The notes below the pieces were generated by a model, which searched no databases, was not told the DNA's origin, and saw only the letters and a program-made list of their open reading frames with translations. Made by a program: the position numbers and the translations under genes. A DNA stretch of 64,000 nt from Succinivibrio dextrinosolvens (GTDB lineage Bacteria > Pseudomonadota > Gammaproteobacteria > Enterobacterales > Succinivibrionaceae), in NCBI RefSeq assembly GCF_011065405.1, contig NZ_CP047056.1:3122747-3186746 (forward strand), in the 5' to 3' direction. Below are positions 29,122 through 36,948 of the stretch, in pieces; the stretch's first letter is position 1; each line of letters begins with the position of its first letter.

Positions 29122-29967
29122 TTATTTTTCATATGTAAATGCAGGAATAAAAGCTCCTTTATAGGATGTTTTGATGATATCTGCCACCTCTTTTGTATGG
29201 TATAAATCAACAATATGAAGAAACAGTTCGTTGTCTTGGTCACTTTCTCTTGAAGCAATTACATTTACAAAGGGGTTCTCAAGTCCCCAGCCTTCGGTGT
29301 TTTCAATGTAGATTGCATCTTTGTCCGGAGTAAGACCTCGATCTACGGCATAGCCTCCATTAATGAAGGCTGCTGTTACATCATCAAGAGTGCCATATGA
29401 ATTTGCAGCGTCTACCCAGTAGAACTTAAGGTTCTTTGGATTCTCAATGATGTCACTCTGTCCTGGAAGATATCCGGCATCAGCATTGAGTTTTAGATAG
29501 CCGGCAGTTTCAAGCAGTCTTAATGCTCGGCCTGTGGTAATAGGATCACTAGGAACAGTTAGAGTATCTCCATCTTTTATGTCAGTTATTTTTTTGATTT
29601 TCTTGGAGTAGAGTCCTAAAGGTGCAATTATTGTTGTGCCTATTGCCTTTAGGTGGTAGCCGTTTTCATCGGATTCTGTTTTTAAAAAAGCTCCTGTCTG
29701 AAAGGCGTTAAGATCGATCTCTCCCTCTTCTAGTGCTCTGTTAGGCAATGGATATGTTGAGAATCTTACAAGTTCAGCTTTCACTCCTTCTGCTTCAAGT
29801 TTTTCTATGATTGGTTTCCAGTACTCATTATTCTCTCCTACAACTCCAATCTTAACCTCGTTTCTATCATAAGCATAGGAAGGTGAGTATAAGGCTGAAA
29901 TGATAACCGTTGCGGCAATTCCTTTCTGGATTAGTCCTGATAATTTTCTAAAATTAAATGTTTTCAT
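29122..29967 (-). CDS. MetQ/NlpA-family substrate-binding protein (non-lipidated)
   Basis: 281 residues. A cleavable signal peptide ends near SYA-YD (about residue 33). There is no lipobox cysteine, unlike E. coli MetQ. Family blocks are clear: VKIGVVGENNEYWKPI, GEIDLNAFQTGAFL, IAPLGLYSKKIK, VPSDPITTGRALRLLETAG, DDVTAAFINGGYAVDRGL. MetQ proteins deliver methionine (L or D) and related compounds to MetNI. It is separately transcribed and divergent from the operon starting at 30.6 kb, which holds the nearest MetN and MetI. It may therefore supply an additional ligand specificity to that transporter. Confidence 0.9.
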   Translation of the reverse strand: MKTFNFRKLSGLIQKGIAATVIISALYSPSYAYDRNEVKIGVVGENNEYWKPIIEKLEAEGVKAELVRFSTYPLPNRALEEGEIDLNAFQTGAFLKTESDENGYHLKAIGTTIIAPLGLYSKKIKKITDIKDGDTLTVPSDPITTGRALRLLETAGYLKLNADAGYLPGQSDIIENPKNLKFYWVDAANSYGTLDDVTAAFINGGYAVDRGLTPDKDAIYIENTEGWGLENPFVNVIASRESDQDNELFLHIVDLYHTKEVADIIKTSYKGAFIPAFTYEK

Positions 29968-30591
29968 AATATATTCCTTAAATTCTTTCTGAATAAAAGT
30001 CTGTTTGATCCGGTAAAAACCGCTTTCTGCAGTTTGATAAAGTATGATTAGAGTTTGTTTCCTCCTGTGTTTGCTGTTTTTTTTTAATCTTAAATTGAGC
30101 TATTCTTGCTCATTTTTATATTTAAACAATGATCTTACTTGAGGTGAATTCATCAGATGACGAACTGCTCTGAATGAGGCTATACTTCAAATACAAAGGT
30201 AATAGCCATAGTTATTTATTTTGATATAAAAAATAATAAGAAGTTTGCACCTGTTTATATCATTTTTTTTTTCATTTAATAATAATAAATATCTTATGTC
30301 AATATAATATTATTTTTGAGCTAAAATTATTTTTTTAAACAAATAACAATATGTTAGTTATTGTTTATGGAGTAATTGTATATTCTATTAACAATAATAA
30401 AATTCTTCTTTGGGAAGGACTATACTGTTATAGTTTTATTCTATATCTATGTATCAAAAAATAGTATTAGCAAACTTATTTTTATATGCCATAATAAATA
30501 CAAATGTTGAGAAAACGTTTGTAAATGGATCAGGAAGAAATCCTGCTCTTAATAAAAGAATCAAAAATAGAAAATTTTTGAGGAACCCAAA
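29968..30591. other. AT-rich divergent intergenic region
   Basis: These 624 bp separate the lone MetQ-like gene from the leader peptide of the oxidoreductase operon. The region is extremely AT-rich. On the reverse strand AGGAGG (near 30060) has no start codon at a proper distance. CAGGA-AGAAA-TCCTG forms a small hairpin just before the leader peptide, near 30531-30545. I could not place promoters with confidence. Confidence 0.4.
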
Positions 30592-30708
30592 ATGTCTGCT
30601 GTCGTATCAAGAATATTCGATTCAAATCTAAGTATCTATTCAGCCTCTGTGTCCTATCAGGCAGGTTCTCTCTTCTCCTGTTCTTGTTTCTGCTGTTCCC
30701 GAATGTAG
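30592..30708 (+). CDS. Cysteine-rich leader peptide of the oxidoreductase-MetNI operon
   Basis: A 38-codon frame from ATG 30592 to TAG 30706-30708, preceded by GAGGAA with 6-7 nt spacing, one of the best ribosome-binding sites in the area. The peptide starts MSAVVSRIFDSN and ends SLFSCSCFCCSRM, with four cysteine codons (TGT, TGT, TGC, TGT) within six positions close to the stop. It has no signal peptide or known domain. It lies 106 bp before a MetNIQ-type operon. The likely role is ribosome-stalling control by cysteinyl-tRNA supply: slow translation of the Cys run would alter the downstream RNA structure or Rho access. The sequence directly shows a well-positioned uORF with clustered Cys codons. 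I could not identify a definite alternative hairpin; CTCC at 30717-30720 could pair with the GGAG of the next gene's ribosome-binding site. Confidence 0.7.
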   Translation: MSAVVSRIFDSNLSIYSASVSYQAGSLFSCSCFCCSRM

Positions 30709-30814
30709 ACGTTAGTCTCCTACCCGTTTTATTGAGTTTTTAAAACTTCGGATTGTTAGAGCAAATTCATTCGTCTGACGTTATTTTCAGTCAAATGCTA
30801 TTGGGGAGTAGTGT

Positions 30815-32149
30815 ATGTATAGAACTTCAAATTTCCCTGAAGAATCAGGGGTAAATCCATGGTATGAACTATCAAAATACAAGGAACATAAGTTTACAGA
30901 TCCATCGGAAATAAAAAACAATTACGACTATGTAGTAGTCGGTGCCGGTTTTGGCGGAGTTAGCGCAGCCTTTAGACTATCAGAGAATAATCCTTCAGCA
31001 AAAATAGCTCTGATTGATGCTCTTCCTGTAGGTTACTACAGCTCTGGCAGAAATGCAGGCTTTGTAACTATTGCTCAGGTTGCTAAAGCTCTGATTGGCT
31101 TTGATCATTTCACCCTGGATGATCAGAGATGGCTTCTTCATTTAAACAAAACCGTGGTTTCCCGTATTGAAAAGATAAGGGAACAGAGCAAGCTTGAGTT
31201 TGAATGGCGACAGGACGGCATGTATAAGGCTGTACGTGAAAAGAGAAATGTTGCAGCTCTGGATGCTCTGGAAGGTCATCTGCAAAGACTTGGTTTAGGC
31301 TATGAACGTCTTAAGGGAGATGAGCTTTCATCAAGATTAGGAACGTCCTTCTATAAAGATGCCATTTATGTAAAGGATACAATCCTAAACAATCCATCAG
31401 AGGTTATAAGAGGCCTTGCTACAGCTTTGCCTTCAAATGTGTCCGTATTTGAAAACACTAAAGTTGCGCAGGTTGATGATGGGGCGATTCCAAAGGTAAT
31501 TCTCTCTGACGGCAGAGAGATTGTAACAAGACAGGTTATCCTTACTGTAAATGCATTTTTAAGTCGTTTTGGATTCGCTTCTGCCTCAAATGTTGCCGCA
31601 ATTCATAGCTATGGTGCTCTAACGCGTGAGCTTAAAGATGGTGAACTTGAGAACTTTAAAAATGTCCGTCCATGGGGAATAACCGCAACTCATCCATCAG
31701 GTGCAACTTTAAGATTTACTCCTGATCATCGAATATTTGTTCGAACCGACATTGATTTTGCTACTAATCTAAATATTTCCCAGAAGAAATTTGACCGCTC
31801 TGATTTCTTCCTAAGGAGAGCTTTTATAAGACGCTTCCCTGAACTTGAAAATGTTGAGTTTGAATACAAGTACGGAGGTTTGATTTCCTTTACCGGAAAT
31901 ACCAGACCACTGTTCGGTGAGGTTGCCAAAAATATCTATGCAGGTGTTACATCGGATGGCACTGGCGTTACCAGAGCTGCAATTCTCGGAACATATCTTG
32001 CTGATCTAATTCAACACAGAGATAGTAGCGAACTTGATTATATAAAGCGAGCCTATCATCCAAGCTATCTGCCTCCAGAGCCTCTGCGTACACTTGGTGC
32101 AACAGCCTTCCTTAAATACAAGGATTTATATGCAGGCTCTGAACTCTGA
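30815..32149 (+). CDS. FAD-dependent oxidoreductase (DAO family), first copy
   Basis: 444 residues. The dinucleotide-binding motif VVVGAGFGGVSAAFRL lies at about residues 41-56, followed by the SSGRNAGFVT block that lines the flavin in DAO-type amine and amino-acid oxidases. The C-terminal substrate/FAD segment is YGGLISFTGNTRPLFG with TSDGTGVTRAAILG. Members oxidatively deaminate or demethylate amino acids (D-amino acids, sarcosine, gamma-glutamylputrescine). GGGGAG precedes the ATG. Its place at the head of a methionine-type transporter operon suggests oxidation of the imported compound, perhaps D-methionine or another sulfur amino acid. It is about as long as, and clearly homologous to, the second copy at 34832. 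Confidence 0.86.
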   Translation: MYRTSNFPEESGVNPWYELSKYKEHKFTDPSEIKNNYDYVVVGAGFGGVSAAFRLSENNPSAKIALIDALPVGYYSSGRNAGFVTIAQVAKALIGFDHFTLDDQRWLLHLNKTVVSRIEKIREQSKLEFEWRQDGMYKAVREKRNVAALDALEGHLQRLGLGYERLKGDELSSRLGTSFYKDAIYVKDTILNNPSEVIRGLATALPSNVSVFENTKVAQVDDGAIPKVILSDGREIVTRQVILTVNAFLSRFGFASASNVAAIHSYGALTRELKDGELENFKNVRPWGITATHPSGATLRFTPDHRIFVRTDIDFATNLNISQKKFDRSDFFLRRAFIRRFPELENVEFEYKYGGLISFTGNTRPLFGEVAKNIYAGVTSDGTGVTRAAILGTYLADLIQHRDSSELDYIKRAYHPSYLPPEPLRTLGATAFLKYKDLYAGSEL

Positions 32150-32200: not shown

Positions 32201-33019
32201 ATGAAAAACATTAAGAATCTTCTGTCCGCAGCATTTGTTGGATTAACTTTCTTTACTGCTTCTGCAGCTTTTGCTGATGAACCTAATGAAGTCAAACTTG
32301 GCGTAGTAGGAGAACATAACGAGGCATGGGAAGATGTTGTAAAGAGACTTAAAAATGAAGGTGTAAACCTTACCTTAGTCAAGTTTGCTGATTATACTCT
32401 GCCTAACCGTGCGCTTAATGACGGTGAAATTGATCTTAACGCCTTCCAGCACGTGGCCTACCTCAAAGCAGATGTTGAGGCTCATGACTATAAGATTGAG
32501 CCTATTGCCAATACCATCATTGCTCCTTTAGGTCTTTATTCAAAAAAGATTAAAAACGTAAGCGAGCTTAAAGATGGAGATACCATCGCTATACCTAATG
32601 ATCCAACCAATGGAGGTCGTGCTCTTAAGGTTCTGGAACTCGCAGGTATTATCAAGCTTGATCCGTCAAAGGGCTATATTCCAACTGTGCGTGATATAAC
32701 CGAAAATCCTAAGAACATCCAGATTTATGAAGTCGATGCCGGAAATACACCTAGTCTTCTTCCTGATGTTGCTGCTGCCATTATCAATTCAAATTATGCA
32801 GTGGACAATGAGCTGAATCCAACTACTGATCCAATTTTCTCTGACGGTGTAGGCAAGGTTGATCTGGATAATCCTTACATCAATATAATTGCAGCCCGTT
32901 CTGATAATAAGGATAATCCACTGTTCAAAAAGATCATCGCTGCCTATCAGACTAAGGAAACAGCTGAAATTATCAAGGAGCTGTATCACGGAGGAGAGGT
33001 TCCTGTATTCAATTATTAA
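32201..33019 (+). CDS. MetQ/NlpA-family periplasmic binding protein
   Basis: 272 residues with a signal peptide (cleavage near SAAFA-DEP, residue about 25) and no lipobox. It shares the family blocks with the gene at 29122 (VKLGVVGEHNEAWEDV, GEIDLNAFQHVAYL, IAPLGLYSKKIKNV, NDPTNGGRALKVLELAG). It should capture the substrate for the MetN-MetI importer encoded downstream. It follows the first oxidoreductase by 51 bp. A perfect terminator-like hairpin lies just after it, which would make it more abundant than the membrane components, a common arrangement for binding proteins. Confidence 0.92.
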   Translation: MKNIKNLLSAAFVGLTFFTASAAFADEPNEVKLGVVGEHNEAWEDVVKRLKNEGVNLTLVKFADYTLPNRALNDGEIDLNAFQHVAYLKADVEAHDYKIEPIANTIIAPLGLYSKKIKNVSELKDGDTIAIPNDPTNGGRALKVLELAGIIKLDPSKGYIPTVRDITENPKNIQIYEVDAGNTPSLLPDVAAAIINSNYAVDNELNPTTDPIFSDGVGKVDLDNPYINIIAARSDNKDNPLFKKIIAAYQTKETAEIIKELYHGGEVPVFNY

Positions 33020-33028
33020 GCAGACTTT

Positions 33029-33068
33029 AACTCTTTATCCTGCCTCCAGCAGATAAAGAGTTCTTTTT
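33029..33068 (+). terminator. Intra-operon terminator between the binding protein and metN
   Basis: AACTCTTTATC (33029-33039) and GATAAAGAGTT (33052-33062) form a perfect 11-bp stem followed by CTTTTT. It probably causes partial termination, or stabilises the 3' end of the binding-protein transcript, since metN follows 44 bp later without an obvious promoter. Confidence 0.8.
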
Positions 33069-33111
33069 AGCTGCTAGATAACTGCATAAATATAAGTGAT
33101 AGGTAAGATAG

Positions 33112-34149
33112 ATGATAAAACTTGAGCATGTTTCAAAAACCTTTGAGCGTGACGGCGTTTCCTTTAAGGCAGTGGATGATGTGTCACTGGAAATAAAAAA
33201 AGGTGAAATCTTTGGAATCATTGGATTTTCTGGCGCAGGAAAGTCAACTCTGGTCCGTTGTATCAATCTTCTGGAAATACCGGATAAGGGAAGCGTTGTC
33301 AGTGTAGATGGACTTAATCTTACTGCCTTGTCTCCAAAAGAGCTTAGAGAGGCAAGAGCAGGTATTGGTATGATTTTTCAGCATTTCAATCTGATGCCCT
33401 CAAGAACCGTGCTTGAGAATATAATCTACCCTCTGTCTCACAAGGGAATTAAAAAAGAGGCTCAACGAAAAAGAGCAATTGAGCTTTTAAGGCGAGTAGA
33501 TCTTGAAAGTAAAGCTGATTCATATCCATCTGAGCTGTCAGGAGGGCAGAAACAGCGTGTTGCTATAGCCAGGGCATTGGCCTCCTCTCCACAGGTTCTG
33601 CTATGTGACGAGGCTACATCTGCTTTAGATCCTCAGACTACTCACGAGATTTTAGGCCTTCTAAAGGAACTTAATGCCGAGCTAGGAATCACAATTGTCA
33701 TCATTACTCATGAGATGGCTGTGGTTAAAGACATTTGCTGCAGGGTAGCTGTACTTGAGAACGGTCACCTGGTAGAACAGGGCTCAACATTTGAGGTTTT
33801 CGCAAATCCTAAGGAAAAGATAACCCAGAATTTTGTAAAGGCAGCATCGAATCTTTCAAAAGCAGAGCATCTTTCCTTTGAGCATCCTCTTTTATGCGAT
33901 CTCAAGCCTGGGGAGAAATTTGTAAGATTATCCTACAGGGGACCTGGAGTTTCTGAGCCGCTTATATCCTTAATGACATCTCGTTTCAATGTGAAGATGA
34001 ACATTCTTTATGCGGATGTGGAGCTCGTAAACAACTCTCCTATCGGCGGTACCGTTGGGATTCTCTCCGGTCGCTATGAGGATGTTGAAAATGCACTTAT
34101 TTATATTGCCACAAAGAATGTAAATGTGGAGGTCCTGAAAAATGGCTGA
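33112..34149 (+). CDS. metN: MetN-type ABC transporter ATPase with C-terminal NIL domain
   Basis: 345 residues, as for E. coli MetN (343). Walker A is GFSGAGKST, the signature is LSGGQKQRVAIARA, Walker B is VLLCDEATSALDP, and the switch histidine is in ITHEM. Residues about 265-345 form the NIL regulatory domain, which in E. coli MetN binds cytoplasmic methionine and shuts the transporter down (transinhibition). Here it reads FVRLSYRGPGVSEPLIS and NSPIGGTVGILSG. The NIL domain implies feedback by a related amino acid. It overlaps metI by 8 bp. The exact substrate (methionine, D-methionine, cystine-related) is not proven. Confidence 0.93.
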   Translation: MIKLEHVSKTFERDGVSFKAVDDVSLEIKKGEIFGIIGFSGAGKSTLVRCINLLEIPDKGSVVSVDGLNLTALSPKELREARAGIGMIFQHFNLMPSRTVLENIIYPLSHKGIKKEAQRKRAIELLRRVDLESKADSYPSELSGGQKQRVAIARALASSPQVLLCDEATSALDPQTTHEILGLLKELNAELGITIVIITHEMAVVKDICCRVAVLENGHLVEQGSTFEVFANPKEKITQNFVKAASNLSKAEHLSFEHPLLCDLKPGEKFVRLSYRGPGVSEPLISLMTSRFNVKMNILYADVELVNNSPIGGTVGILSGRYEDVENALIYIATKNVNVEVLKNG

Positions 34150-34822
34150 TTTGTTTAATACTCTATTTCCTCACGTTGCCTCAAAGCTAGATGAACTGTG
34201 GCTTTCAACCTTGCAGACTCTGTATATGATGCTTGTTTCTGGTGGCATTGCATTCTTGCTTGGAATTATTCTTGGCGTGACTCTGATTGTTACAAAACAG
34301 GGAGGAATTCTAGAGAAAAAGATTGTATTTGGAATTTTAGACCGACTTATCAATGTGTTTCGTTCAATTCCTTTTGTGATTCTGCTTGCAGCCCTTATTC
34401 CTTTTTCAAGATTTATTGTGGGCACTGCAATCGGAACTACAGGTGCTATTGTTCCTCTGGTAGTGGGCACGGTACCTTTCTTCTCAAGACAGGTTGAAAG
34501 CGCTTTGTCAAATGTTGATAAAGGACTTGTAGAAGCTGCAAAGTCCATGGGCTCATCTCCTCTGGGGATTATTTTCAGAGTTTATCTTAAGGAGAGTATT
34601 CCTGCATTGGTAAGAGTCTCTCAAATTACTGCAATTAGTCTAATCGGCCTTACTGCAATGGCTGGAGCAATCGGCGGCGGTGGCCTTGGAGATTTTGCAA
34701 TCCGCTACGGGCATCAGCGCGGTCAGACAGATGTTACCTACATTACTATTGTTGTGATCCTTCTGATGGTTAGTGTGATTCAGAAAGGTGGTAATTACAT
34801 TATTAGGAAAACATCACATTAG
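34142..34822 (+). CDS. metI: MetI-type ABC transporter permease
   Basis: 226 residues with about five transmembrane segments. The EAA coupling loop is VEAAKSMGSSPLGIIFRVYLKES, followed by the conserved AGAIGGGGLGDFAIRYGHQRG of methionine permeases. It forms the membrane channel partner of MetN. The start overlaps the metN stop, so the two are translationally coupled. Confidence 0.94.
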   Translation: MADLFNTLFPHVASKLDELWLSTLQTLYMMLVSGGIAFLLGIILGVTLIVTKQGGILEKKIVFGILDRLINVFRSIPFVILLAALIPFSRFIVGTAIGTTGAIVPLVVGTVPFFSRQVESALSNVDKGLVEAAKSMGSSPLGIIFRVYLKESIPALVRVSQITAISLIGLTAMAGAIGGGGLGDFAIRYGHQRGQTDVTYITIVVILLMVSVIQKGGNYIIRKTSH

Positions 34823-34831
34823 GAGTTAAGC

Positions 34832-36160
34832 ATGAAAAAAACTGATTACTTTCCTGAGGAGTCTGGAAAAAACGGCTGGTTCGAAACCAGTCGTTACAGG
34901 AATTATCGTTTTAAGGCTCGCAGTGAAATCCAGCCTTCCTATGACTATGTTGTGGTTGGAGGAGGCTTTGCTGGTGTAAATGCGGCTTTTCGTCTTGCTG
35001 AAAATGATAAGAATGCAAGTATTGCTCTTATTGATGCCTTTCCAATAGGTTACTTCTCCTCTGGAAGAAATGCAGGTTTCATCATAGATGTCCCTCATAG
35101 CATTGTTGGTGATCCAAAATTCACTTTTGAAGACCAGAAATGGCGTTTTCGTCTTAATAAATTAGTTATCGAGAGAATGAAGAAAATCAAGGAGGAGAAT
35201 CATCTTGAATGCGACTGGCATCAGGATGGAATGCATCAGGCTGCCAGAATTAAAAGCAATTTAAGTTATCTCGAGCAGCTTGCTGAATTTCTGGATGTGA
35301 TGGAGGCTCCTTATCAGTGGTTCGATGCGGCTGAAACCTCACAGCGTCTTGGAACAAATTTTTACATCAAATCTCTCTATACCCCAGGAACTATCTTAAT
35401 CAATCCTTCTGAGACAGTCAGAGGACTTGCAACAGTTCTTCCTGAAAACGTAAGTGTCTTTGAGAATACTCCTGTTATTGAGGTTAAAGAAGGTGATATT
35501 CCAAACGTAATTCTGGCCAGTGGAATAACAATAAAATGCAGAAAGGTAATTCTGACTGTAAGTGGTTTTCTTAAAAATTTTGGAGTTCCTCTTTCTAATC
35601 GTATTGCTGGTATTCATAGCTTTGGAGCTTTTACAAGAGAGCTTAATGATGATGAGATTAAAACTCTTAATGGCGCCAGTCCCTGGGGAGTAACAGCGGC
35701 TCATCCCGGTGGGGCCACACTTCGTTATACGAGAAGCAGAAGACTCTATGTCAGAACAGATATCACTTTTGCTACTCACATCAATATAGATAACAGCAGA
35801 CTTTACAAATCTGTTTATAAACTACGCCGTGCCTTTAACAATCGTTTTCCTCAGTTAAAGGATGTTAACTTTGAATATGTCTATGGAGGATATATTCCAA
35901 TCACAGGAAACACTCAGCCTTTATTTGAGAATCCTGCTAAGAATATTTTTGCAGGAGCAGTTGGTGACGGAACCGGAGTAACGCGTGCCGCAACTGTAGG
36001 TACTTTCCTTGCAGACTGGGCAACCGGATTAGACAGCGAAGAGTTTAGATATGTTAAAAAGACATTCAGACCAAACTGGCTTCCTCCTGAACCTTTCAGA
36101 ACTGTCGGTGCAACAGCCCGGTTAATTTATGAGGATATGCACGCCCGCAGCGAAATTTAG
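34832..36160 (+). CDS. FAD-dependent oxidoreductase (DAO family), second copy
   Basis: 442 residues and clearly paralogous to the protein at 30815 along its whole length. Shared blocks are FPEESGKNGW near the N-terminus, YVVVGGGFAGVNAAFRL, FSSGRNAGFI, GVTAAHPGGATLRYTR, YGGYIPITGNTQPLF and GAVGDGTGVTRAATVG. An AGGAG ribosome-binding site precedes the ATG 9 bp after metI. Two diverged oxidoreductases flanking one importer suggest two related substrates, or the two enantiomers or methylated forms of one. FAD-binding residues are retained in both. Confidence 0.85.
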   Translation: MKKTDYFPEESGKNGWFETSRYRNYRFKARSEIQPSYDYVVVGGGFAGVNAAFRLAENDKNASIALIDAFPIGYFSSGRNAGFIIDVPHSIVGDPKFTFEDQKWRFRLNKLVIERMKKIKEENHLECDWHQDGMHQAARIKSNLSYLEQLAEFLDVMEAPYQWFDAAETSQRLGTNFYIKSLYTPGTILINPSETVRGLATVLPENVSVFENTPVIEVKEGDIPNVILASGITIKCRKVILTVSGFLKNFGVPLSNRIAGIHSFGAFTRELNDDEIKTLNGASPWGVTAAHPGGATLRYTRSRRLYVRTDITFATHINIDNSRLYKSVYKLRRAFNNRFPQLKDVNFEYVYGGYIPITGNTQPLFENPAKNIFAGAVGDGTGVTRAATVGTFLADWATGLDSEEFRYVKKTFRPNWLPPEPFRTVGATARLIYEDMHARSEI

Positions 36161-36192: not shown

Positions 36193-36948
36193 ATGTCAGA
36201 AAAGGTAAGACAAATAAAACTTGGTGTGGTGGGGAATGAAAACTCGCCATGGGAATATGTTGCGCAGAAACTTAAAAAAGAGAATATCGAGTTGGAGATT
36301 GTAACCTACAGCGATTATTTCTCTCCAAACAAGGATCTTTCAGAAGGGCTGATTGACGCTAATGCTTATCAGCATAAGGCTTTTCTAAATGCTGAAATCT
36401 CAGAAAAGCATTATGATTTCGAAATATATGGTGAGACATATCTTGATCCGATAGGAATTTATTCAAAAAGAATTAAAAGTCTGAAACGGCTGAACAAGGG
36501 AGATTCAGTTGCAGTTCCTGCTGATAGAGCTAATGAGATTCGTGCTTTGAAGGTTTTACAAGGTGAAGATCTGATTGATTTTGAGATTGATCCTCAGTCA
36601 GGAGAGATTGTATTTACAAAGAATCAGTTGCATCTTGAATTCAAATTATATGATGCAGCTTTGCTTTACAGTAGTCTTGATGAAGTAACCTGTGCTTTTA
36701 TAAATGGAAATTATGCCTTTGAAAAAGGACTTAATCCTGTAACAGATTCCATCTTCAGAGAAAAACTGGATCTTGGTGATAGCGATAATCCTTTTGTGAA
36801 GGTGCTGGTTGCAAATTCAAATCTTGAAGAGGACAAGCAGAGTATTTTAAGAAGAGCTCTGTTCTATTATCAGACAGGAGCAGTGGCTGAAATAATTAAA
36901 CAAATGCAGGGAGGTTCTCTTATTCCTGCGTTTTTACCTCGTTTCTAG
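36193..36948 (+). CDS. MetQ-like protein lacking a signal peptide
   Basis: 251 residues that start directly with the mature fold (MSEKVRQIKLGVVGNENSPWEYV); AAGGAAAAAG gives a sound ribosome-binding site, so the short N-terminus is not an artefact of a wrong start. Family blocks are retained: GLIDANAYQHKAFL, LDPIGIYSKRIK, VPADRANEIRALKVL, DEVTCAFINGNYAFEKGL. Without export it should sit in the cytoplasm, where it cannot feed MetNI in the usual way. It might buffer or sense the imported compound, deliver it to the oxidoreductases, or be a decaying copy. It is the last gene of the operon. Confidence 0.82.
   Translation: MSEKVRQIKLGVVGNENSPWEYVAQKLKKENIELEIVTYSDYFSPNKDLSEGLIDANAYQHKAFLNAEISEKHYDFEIYGETYLDPIGIYSKRIKSLKRLNKGDSVAVPADRANEIRALKVLQGEDLIDFEIDPQSGEIVFTKNQLHLEFKLYDAALLYSSLDEVTCAFINGNYAFEKGLNPVTDSIFREKLDLGDSDNPFVKVLVANSNLEEDKQSILRRALFYYQTGAVAEIIKQMQGGSLIPAFLPRF

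Follow-up and report, generated by a model that had tools for sequence, protein, structure and literature searches.

Transcription attenuation of the trp, his and thr type combines a run of codons near the end of a leader with a terminator/antiterminator pair. Ribosome-mediated sensing of cysteine has been documented in few groups. The cys operons of Actinobacteria carry Cys-codon leaders without terminators (PMC1262725), polycysteine short ORFs are present in mycobacteria (Canestrari 2020, as cited in PMC13236596), and in Rhodobacterales the uORFC-8-2 motif, located before cysS, combines tandem conserved Cys codons with an intrinsic terminator (PMC8632094). Searches of open-licence papers returned no description of Cys or Cys/Met leaders from Succinivibrionaceae, nor of leaders in which Cys codons alternate with Met codons.

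Here we analyze an ORF located upstream of an oxidoreductase-MetQNI operon in a 64,000-nucleotide stretch of the genome of Succinivibrio dextrinosolvens, the whole of which is referred to below as the window. The ORF, at positions 30592-30708 of the forward strand, is real, and its predicted role as a regulatory leader read through its Cys codons is well supported by the comparisons presented in this work. The elements of the region are the following:

30429..30445, + strand: predicted LysR-type operator TATAG-N7-CTATA, an exact motif match with the form of the CmhR site (PMC5359408)
30460..30471, + strand: second promoter box AATAG-N-ATTAGC, always 14 bp from the operator and overlapping the -35 (motif scan)
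30467..30495, + strand: promoter-like TTAGCA - 17 nt - CATAAT (consensus scan; conserved by eye)
30500..30522, + strand: hairpin ACAAATGTT..AACGTTTGT, with five pairs in all four homologs and one two-sided change
30531..30545, + strand: hairpin CAGGA-AGAAA-TCCTG (regulon-wide count of AGAAA loops)
30561..30581, + strand: hairpin TCAAAAAT-AGAAA-ATTTTTGA, just 5' of the leader Shine-Dalgarno (SD), with 8 pairs in all four homologs
30580..30585, + strand: leader SD GAGGAA, conserved in the homologs
30592..30708, + strand: leader peptide ORF, 38 codons plus stop (homologs, alignment)
30592..30599, + strand: leader start segment AUGUCUGC, pairing with 30705-30712 through 8 invariant pairs in the four homologs (column shuffle P 0.003)
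30694..30712, + strand: 19 invariant nt (TGTTCCCGAATGTAGACGT) that begin with the Cys35 codon and include the stop, from the alignment of the four homologs
30709..30720, + strand: candidate anti-SD arm directly 3' of the leader stop, pairing with 30803-30814
30803..30814, + strand: GGGGAGTAGTGT, the SD-to-AUG stretch of the oxidoreductase gene, able to pair with 30709-30720 (pairing in four homologs)
30815..32149, + strand: DAO-family FAD oxidoreductase 1 (PF01266)
32201..33019, + strand: MetQ/NlpA-type substrate-binding protein 1 (PF03180)
33112..34149, + strand: MetN-type ATPase with NIL domain (TIGR02314 below cut-off; PF00005, PF09383)
34142..34822, + strand: MetI-type permease (NF008049 below cut-off; PF00528)
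34832..36160, + strand: DAO-family FAD oxidoreductase 2 (PF01266)
36193..36948, + strand: MetQ/NlpA-type protein 2 (PF03180)

The translation of the leader ORF is MSAVVSRIFDSNLSIYSASVSYQAGSLFSCSCFCCSRM followed by the stop, and its GAGGAA lies 6 nt 5' of the ATG, in agreement with the good ribosome-binding site that an initial annotation had ascribed to this 38-codon frame, which is conserved. Codons 30, 32, 34 and 35 specify Cys (starting at 30679, 30685, 30691 and 30694), the last of them ending 9 nt ahead of the stop codon. The spacer between the leader stop and the ATG of the oxidoreductase gene (30815) is 106 nt long, as previously annotated, and the domains found confirmed the FAD oxidase/MetNIQ-type unit of six genes, in the order DAO, MetQ, MetN, MetI, DAO, MetQ. 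When both strands of the 64 kb window were searched for SD-led ORFs of 8-60 aa with at least three Cys within eight residues, the leader was the only one obtained. The peptide had no match to any NCBIfam or Pfam family at E <= 1, and Rfam at gathering thresholds returned only rRNA and tRNA matches in the whole window.

Some features of the surroundings deserve mention. Between the first metQ and metN (33029-33069), AACTCTTTATC..GATAAAGAGTT followed by CTTTTT was recognized by eye, likely a partial terminator inside the operon. On the minus strand, the 5' UTR of a divergent metQ (29122-29967) contains AAACTGC-AGAAA-GCGGTTT and then T residues (window 29967-30060), which might perhaps represent an attenuator of its own; no Cys leader was seen in that 5' UTR. 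In G012 (locus L081, G012:C147, 5094-10575), a homolog of the second oxidoreductase adjoins a cystathionine synthase/lyase-like gene and two CysK-like genes, the names being assigned partly by eye, a neighbourhood that ties the oxidoreductases to sulfur amino acid metabolism.

A peptide search of 60 genomes gave matches at E <= 1 in 20 of them, and matches covering all 38 residues in four, all within the genus (E <= 4e-7), with identities of 100% in the own genome, 66% in G010, 63% in G004 and 55% in G011. Searching the genus (19 genomes) with a profile recovered these four leaders again, and the next match had an E value of 0.006; genus matches at that value or worse were left out. All four leaders are 5' of the same oxidoreductase gene and show no indel in the ORF. 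Start, stop and three of the Cys codons, whose conservation ahead of homologous operons had been proposed as a check, are kept in four of the 19 genus genomes. The first gene is more than 90% identical in five genomes and the leader is present in four; in G003, where the gene is 94% identical, the contig ends 76 bp upstream and the leader cannot be judged. In G005, at a contig end, the promoter, the hairpins and the start of a similar leader (MSAIVSKKYLF...) could be found, with synonymous changes in codons 3, 5 and 6 with respect to the others; that genome gave no close match to the first gene. Other congeners have oxidoreductases with 48-61% identity, and the regions around them yielded no leader homolog. 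The Cys-ORF filter, applied to 18 loci (243,704 bases), selected 12 ORFs, four being the known leaders and eight being judged chance matches (L077, four in L080, L084, and one each in L090 and L091). No leader match was obtained in the plasmid search, and two of the 261 matches of a wider pattern search of genome contigs corresponded to relatives.

In the alignment of the four homologs, invariant columns amount to 90% in codons 1-7, 37% in codons 8-28, 76% in codons 29-39 and 46% in the spacer. The conserved peptide ends are MSA[VI]VS[RK] at the start and CCSRM at the end, SRM and the stop being invariant. Cys30, Cys34 and Cys35 are present in all four leaders and Cys32 in two, with Gln or His in the others, so that the description of four Cys codons in six positions holds for the window and one homolog, and only the other three Cys are general. 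The invariance of the 19-nt block contrasts with the fourfold sites of the downstream gene, whose divergence is 0.40-0.49 in five of the six pairs. In the remaining pair, G000-G011, this difference is only 0.03, while the leaders differ at 35 of 111 sites, and those of G010 and G004 show fewer differences from the window (23 and 26 sites) than that of G011. A near-identical gene next to a diverged leader in G000 and G011 indicates that recombination homogenised the gene and not the leader. Comparison of 30815-32149 with L048 (G011) places a recombination boundary near the gene start, the leaders being strongly diverged. As tests of coding, substitution shuffles for amino acid similarity gave modest P values (0.033, 0.086 and 0.011).

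The operon of the window and that of a second leader, located before another metQ of the own genome, have in common the promoter TATAG-N7-CTATA-N14-AATAG-N-ATTAGC. With up to three mismatches allowed, 12 of the 19 genomes contain this composite motif, and its sites total 61, versus 4 for the pattern read backwards; six sites are in the own genome, that of the window (30429-30471) having zero mismatches. The promoter-like sequence at 30467-30495, with 9 of 12 consensus matches, is weak evidence alone, one having been found versus 2.1 in shuffles. Genes located 3' of motif sites encode, among others, MetQ paralogs, homocysteine methyltransferase (metE-like), O-acetylhomoserine sulfhydrylase, M20 amidohydrolase and gamma subunits of 2-oxoacid oxidoreductase. 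All genomes with the motif except G003 (87% complete), 11 of 12, encode a LysR-type protein of at least 77% identity, located in G000 at C1:3295991-3296920. In the seven genomes lacking the motif, a 58% homolog is present in two and no homolog at E 1e-60 in the other five; the gene adjoins a motif site in G012, G002, G013 and G001. The search for MetJ recovered E. coli among the controls but gave nothing in the 19 genomes of the genus, and for this reason a Met box/MetJ reading of the AGACGTC-like stretch at 30707-30713 was dropped. The site of the streptococcal activator CmhR is given in PMC5359408 as 5'-TATAGTTTSAAACTATA-3'. The CmhR/MtaR regulon of streptococci is alike in having TATAG-N7-CTATA before metQ, metE and related genes and a LysR-type regulator; Succinivibrio differs as a genus without MetJ, whose promoters have a second box at constant distance and are combined with Cys/Met leaders. 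The Succinivibrio LysR-type protein may be considered a candidate regulator of the motif.

Hairpins with an AGAAA loop are strongly enriched in the 5' UTRs of the regulon. The counterpart in G010 (L208) of the hairpin at 30500-30522 has this loop and 9 pairs. With at least 5 pairs required, 15 of the 58 5' UTRs examined have AGAAA-loop hairpins, which number 20 and come from six kinds of operon, compared to a mean of 0.39 and a maximum of 2 in 100 shuffles and to 0-2 for nine other loops; stems vary among operons and the loop is constant. As for the background, four hairpins with this loop and at least 6 pairs were counted in the window when both strands were considered, the leader's own included. 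The cysS/cysE loci, 317,502 nt in all, contained nine, and AGAAA is among the commoner loops there as well. The 5' UTRs with these hairpins are 30500-30581, L207, L208-L210, L214, L217, L218, L220, L224, L230, L232, L236, L245, L254 and L255. The element at 30561-30581 is also present 5' of the leader of the M20 amidohydrolase operon (L230, L254, L236 and L224; around C1:204 kb in the own genome). That leader-like ORF, ending in LNMPMSLRSFLC before the stop or in variants of it, has Met-Pro-Met and a final Cys; the promoter motif and two of the hairpins recur upstream of it.

Leaders with Cys codons were then found at other loci of the genus. In the 750 nt upstream of 101 cysS, cysK, metQ and cysE loci, a stretch that is shifted when a contig ends in the flank, there were 14 SD-led Cys-cluster ORFs in sense and one in antisense orientation; ten of the 14 appear convincing, and the matches at L096, L127, L171 and L190 seem to be spurious. 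For cysS, one doubtful match and no convincing Cys leader were obtained at the 17 full-length loci of the genus that were scanned. The second leader of the own genome, 5' of another metQ, reads MKKVTRIYKTVLTVLSQANTSSYVNANPFYTSSMCTCHSCTLMCM up to its stop and has homologs in the same three congeners. Those of cysK, also written up to the stop, are MLFSHAFCCMCCGCMCNNTCTASFVQRQISM (G018), MSDYTFSIAGRRICGCLCCGVADMLGAF (G007) and MTFKCCRCCCK (G015), plus an eight-Cys leader in G008. When the regions between motif and first gene were considered, 12 of 57 contained an SD-led ORF with at least three Cys in eight residues, versus a mean of 0.05, and never more than 1, in 200 dinucleotide shuffles; these regions held 14 such ORFs, two being alternative frames of a CMCM repeat. 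The 12 regions are not independent, since they comprise the DAO operon in four genomes, metQ2 in four, metQ3 in three and one metQ in G002, and the other 45 have no Cys leader by this filter. The three metQ3 leaders end in CMCMCMCM, CMCMCM and CMCMCMCM before the stop, the repeat number being variable. These CMCM leaders are 43-45 aa long (L232, at G000:C1 upstream of the metQ at 2048188-2048898, minus strand; L255; L220), and their end is a TGTATG-like repeat whose copy number differs between species. Overall, clusters of Cys/Met codons are common to the sibling leaders, with no common peptide motif.

Folding revealed a hairpin followed by a T run after four of these siblings, those of cysK in G018, G007 and G008 (L121, L125 and L126) and a metQ-type one in G002 (L215), with energies from -14.2 to -17.0 kcal/mol. 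A consensus terminator scan listed those of G018 and G007, but not that of G008 nor, on the sense strand, that of G002. Past the Cys run, the leaders have a 7-9 nt complement of the terminator 5' arm (P in 300 shuffles each of 0.000 for G018, 0.000 for G002, 0.060 for G008 and 0.463 for G007). The cysK siblings and one of metQ show a classical attenuator layout, in which a paused ribosome would let the antiterminator form. Seen across the genus, the leader family probably switches sulfur genes on when charged cysteine tRNA is short.

In the window, the scan of 30380-30900 gave no intrinsic terminator, and the earlier remark that no classic terminator/antiterminator pair follows the leader is correct. 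Of what constitutes a transcriptional attenuator of the trp/his type, the SD-led ORF and the run of Cys codons were found, and the terminator/antiterminator was not. The initial annotation had pointed out as one alternative that CTCC at 30717-30720 could mask GGAG near 30800. These bases are inside the 12-nt helix between 30709-30720 and 30803-30814, which would cover the next SD in the four homologs, with 11, 9, 10 and 10 of 12 positions able to pair in a single register. Three positions show two-sided changes, all four homologs have G.G at position 7, and a pair at position 5 is possible in the window only. The helix is the best of 726 registers 3' of the stop, and its score was reached in about 1/300 of column shuffles (P about 0.003). 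In a set of 9900 registers, eight including this one scored equal or better, mostly matching the pyrimidine-rich leader end with the SD (up to 42 of 48 cells paired, equal to or above the masking helix), and the masking helix alone among the eight has at least two covarying positions. The helix is conserved in register and partly covarying. As for its duplex energies, the fractions of shuffles at least as good were 0.084, 0.492, 0.280 and 0.106, which is unremarkable in two of the four homologs. The same test for SD masking was negative on the metQ2 and metQ3 leaders (P 0.46 and 0.35). A further pairing of the stop segment, 30700-30705 with 30768-30773, is unproven (P 0.716 when anchored on the gene start, where a 1-nt indel breaks the register, and 0.054 on MAFFT columns). 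Folding with ribosome footprints left SD accessibility unchanged in the window and G004 and produced small shifts in G010 and G011, so that the comparison of stalled and unstalled states, as had been suggested, disclosed no consistent two-state switch. The minimum free energy of 30505-30830 is ordinary (z 0.66), 71 of 100 shuffles folding as well.

These data lead us to propose that 30592-30708 specifies a regulatory leader peptide controlling the oxidoreductase-MetQNI operon, in which the passage of ribosomes through the C-terminal Cys codons (30, 34 and 35) would report the supply of charged Cys-tRNA. Were cysteine short, ribosomes would pause at these codons, and a ribosome held at the leader end would keep the SD open; pairing of the stop segment with 30592-30599, or of 30700-30705 with 30768-30773, could likewise leave it open. 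Ribosomes that run on and leave would allow 30709-30720 to pair with 30803-30814, masking the SD. The net direction would be an operon that is on when cysteine is short. Cys-codon sensing by the leader appears quite likely, and the model of leader plus masking as a whole seems reasonably probable. A translational rather than transcriptional read-out has somewhat better than even chances, masking being favoured because the window has no terminator and the SD helix is conserved and covarying. The read-out is the weakest step, masking is the preferred inference and not a result, and support for the model is limited to four full homologs. The cysteine attenuation leader originally envisaged is partly supported: the conserved frame, the Cys siblings and the terminators of congeners favour it, and footprint folding gave no switch.

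The read-out could instead depend on Rho, which would load on the 106-nt spacer once the ribosome leaves and end transcription, a held ribosome blocking it, in the way that a ribosome held at the end of the tnaC leader blocks Rho. A window without an intrinsic terminator and metQ2 and metQ3 sibling leaders without an SD-masking helix would fit such a mechanism, which has also been suggested for the cys leaders of Actinobacteria (PMC1262725). On the other hand, the masking helix is conserved and covarying in the leader family of the window, and Rho is in our opinion an unlikely, if still sizeable, alternative.

Even less probable is that the leader acts as an arrest peptide, the nascent chain binding a ligand or metal or being oxidised and stalling the ribosome at or near the stop, so that the Cys residues and not Cys-tRNA would matter. 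TnaC and SpeFL are arrest peptides of this sort, with the ribosome stalled at or near the stop codon. The invariant N-terminus and SRM end, together with the synonymous changes at the leader start of G005, which point to selection on the peptide, are consistent with this possibility, and a ribosome stalled there would occlude 30709-30720, thereby freeing the SD; however, the middle of the peptide is nearly free, and what the siblings have in common is Cys/Met clusters and not a peptide motif. An action of RNA structure or a trans-acting factor only, with the Cys codons as by-product of a pyrimidine-rich stretch, is the most doubtful of these alternatives, for although nucleotide conservation in the end block extends to silent sites, the start and stop segments can pair and two of four leaders have lost Cys32, the reading frame is kept without indels and Cys clusters recur in unrelated leaders of the regulon and before cysK in congeners.

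Returning to Cys-codon sensing with SD masking, the leader could belong to a two-layer sulfur regulon of Succinivibrio and its close relatives, occupying the place of MetJ, with a CmhR/MtaR-like LysR activator, Cys and Cys-Met leaders with operon-specific read-out and AGAAA hairpins; we put this forward tentatively, at slightly less than even chances. The LysR activator would set transcription, and fast-evolving leaders would read the charging of Cys- and Met-tRNA, through intrinsic termination for cysK and one metQ and through translational masking for the oxidoreductase operon, while tandem AGAAA-loop hairpins might add a further signal. The regulon-wide leader family is the most interesting part of the finding. 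Several unrelated leaders that follow one codon logic behind a common promoter motif offer a natural experiment on the origin of leaders and on changes of read-out, as well as a testable account of how sulfur amino acid uptake may be controlled in rumen and gut bacteria without MetJ.

With regard to known systems, the leader of the window appears to work like the Cys-codon leaders described so far, with no common peptide or gene context seen. It resembles the trp, his and thr leaders in the codon run near its end, and the siblings of cysK and one metQ have in addition a terminator with a competing complement; the leader of the window differs in having no terminator. The uORFC-8-2 motif (PMC8632094) is likewise a proteobacterial leader with tandem conserved Cys codons, but one with a terminator and cysS, neither of which accompanies the leader studied here. 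There is also a likeness in layout with the leaders of Actinobacteria (PMC1262725) and mycobacteria (Canestrari 2020, as cited in PMC13236596), which are short ORFs with Cys near the stop, ahead of sulfur genes and with no obvious terminator. In comparison with them, the peptide and genes of the window are unrelated, the operon being of the MetQNI/oxidoreductase type, and the leader is SD-led, preceded by a long 5' UTR with hairpins and accompanied in the genus by siblings that alternate Cys and Met.
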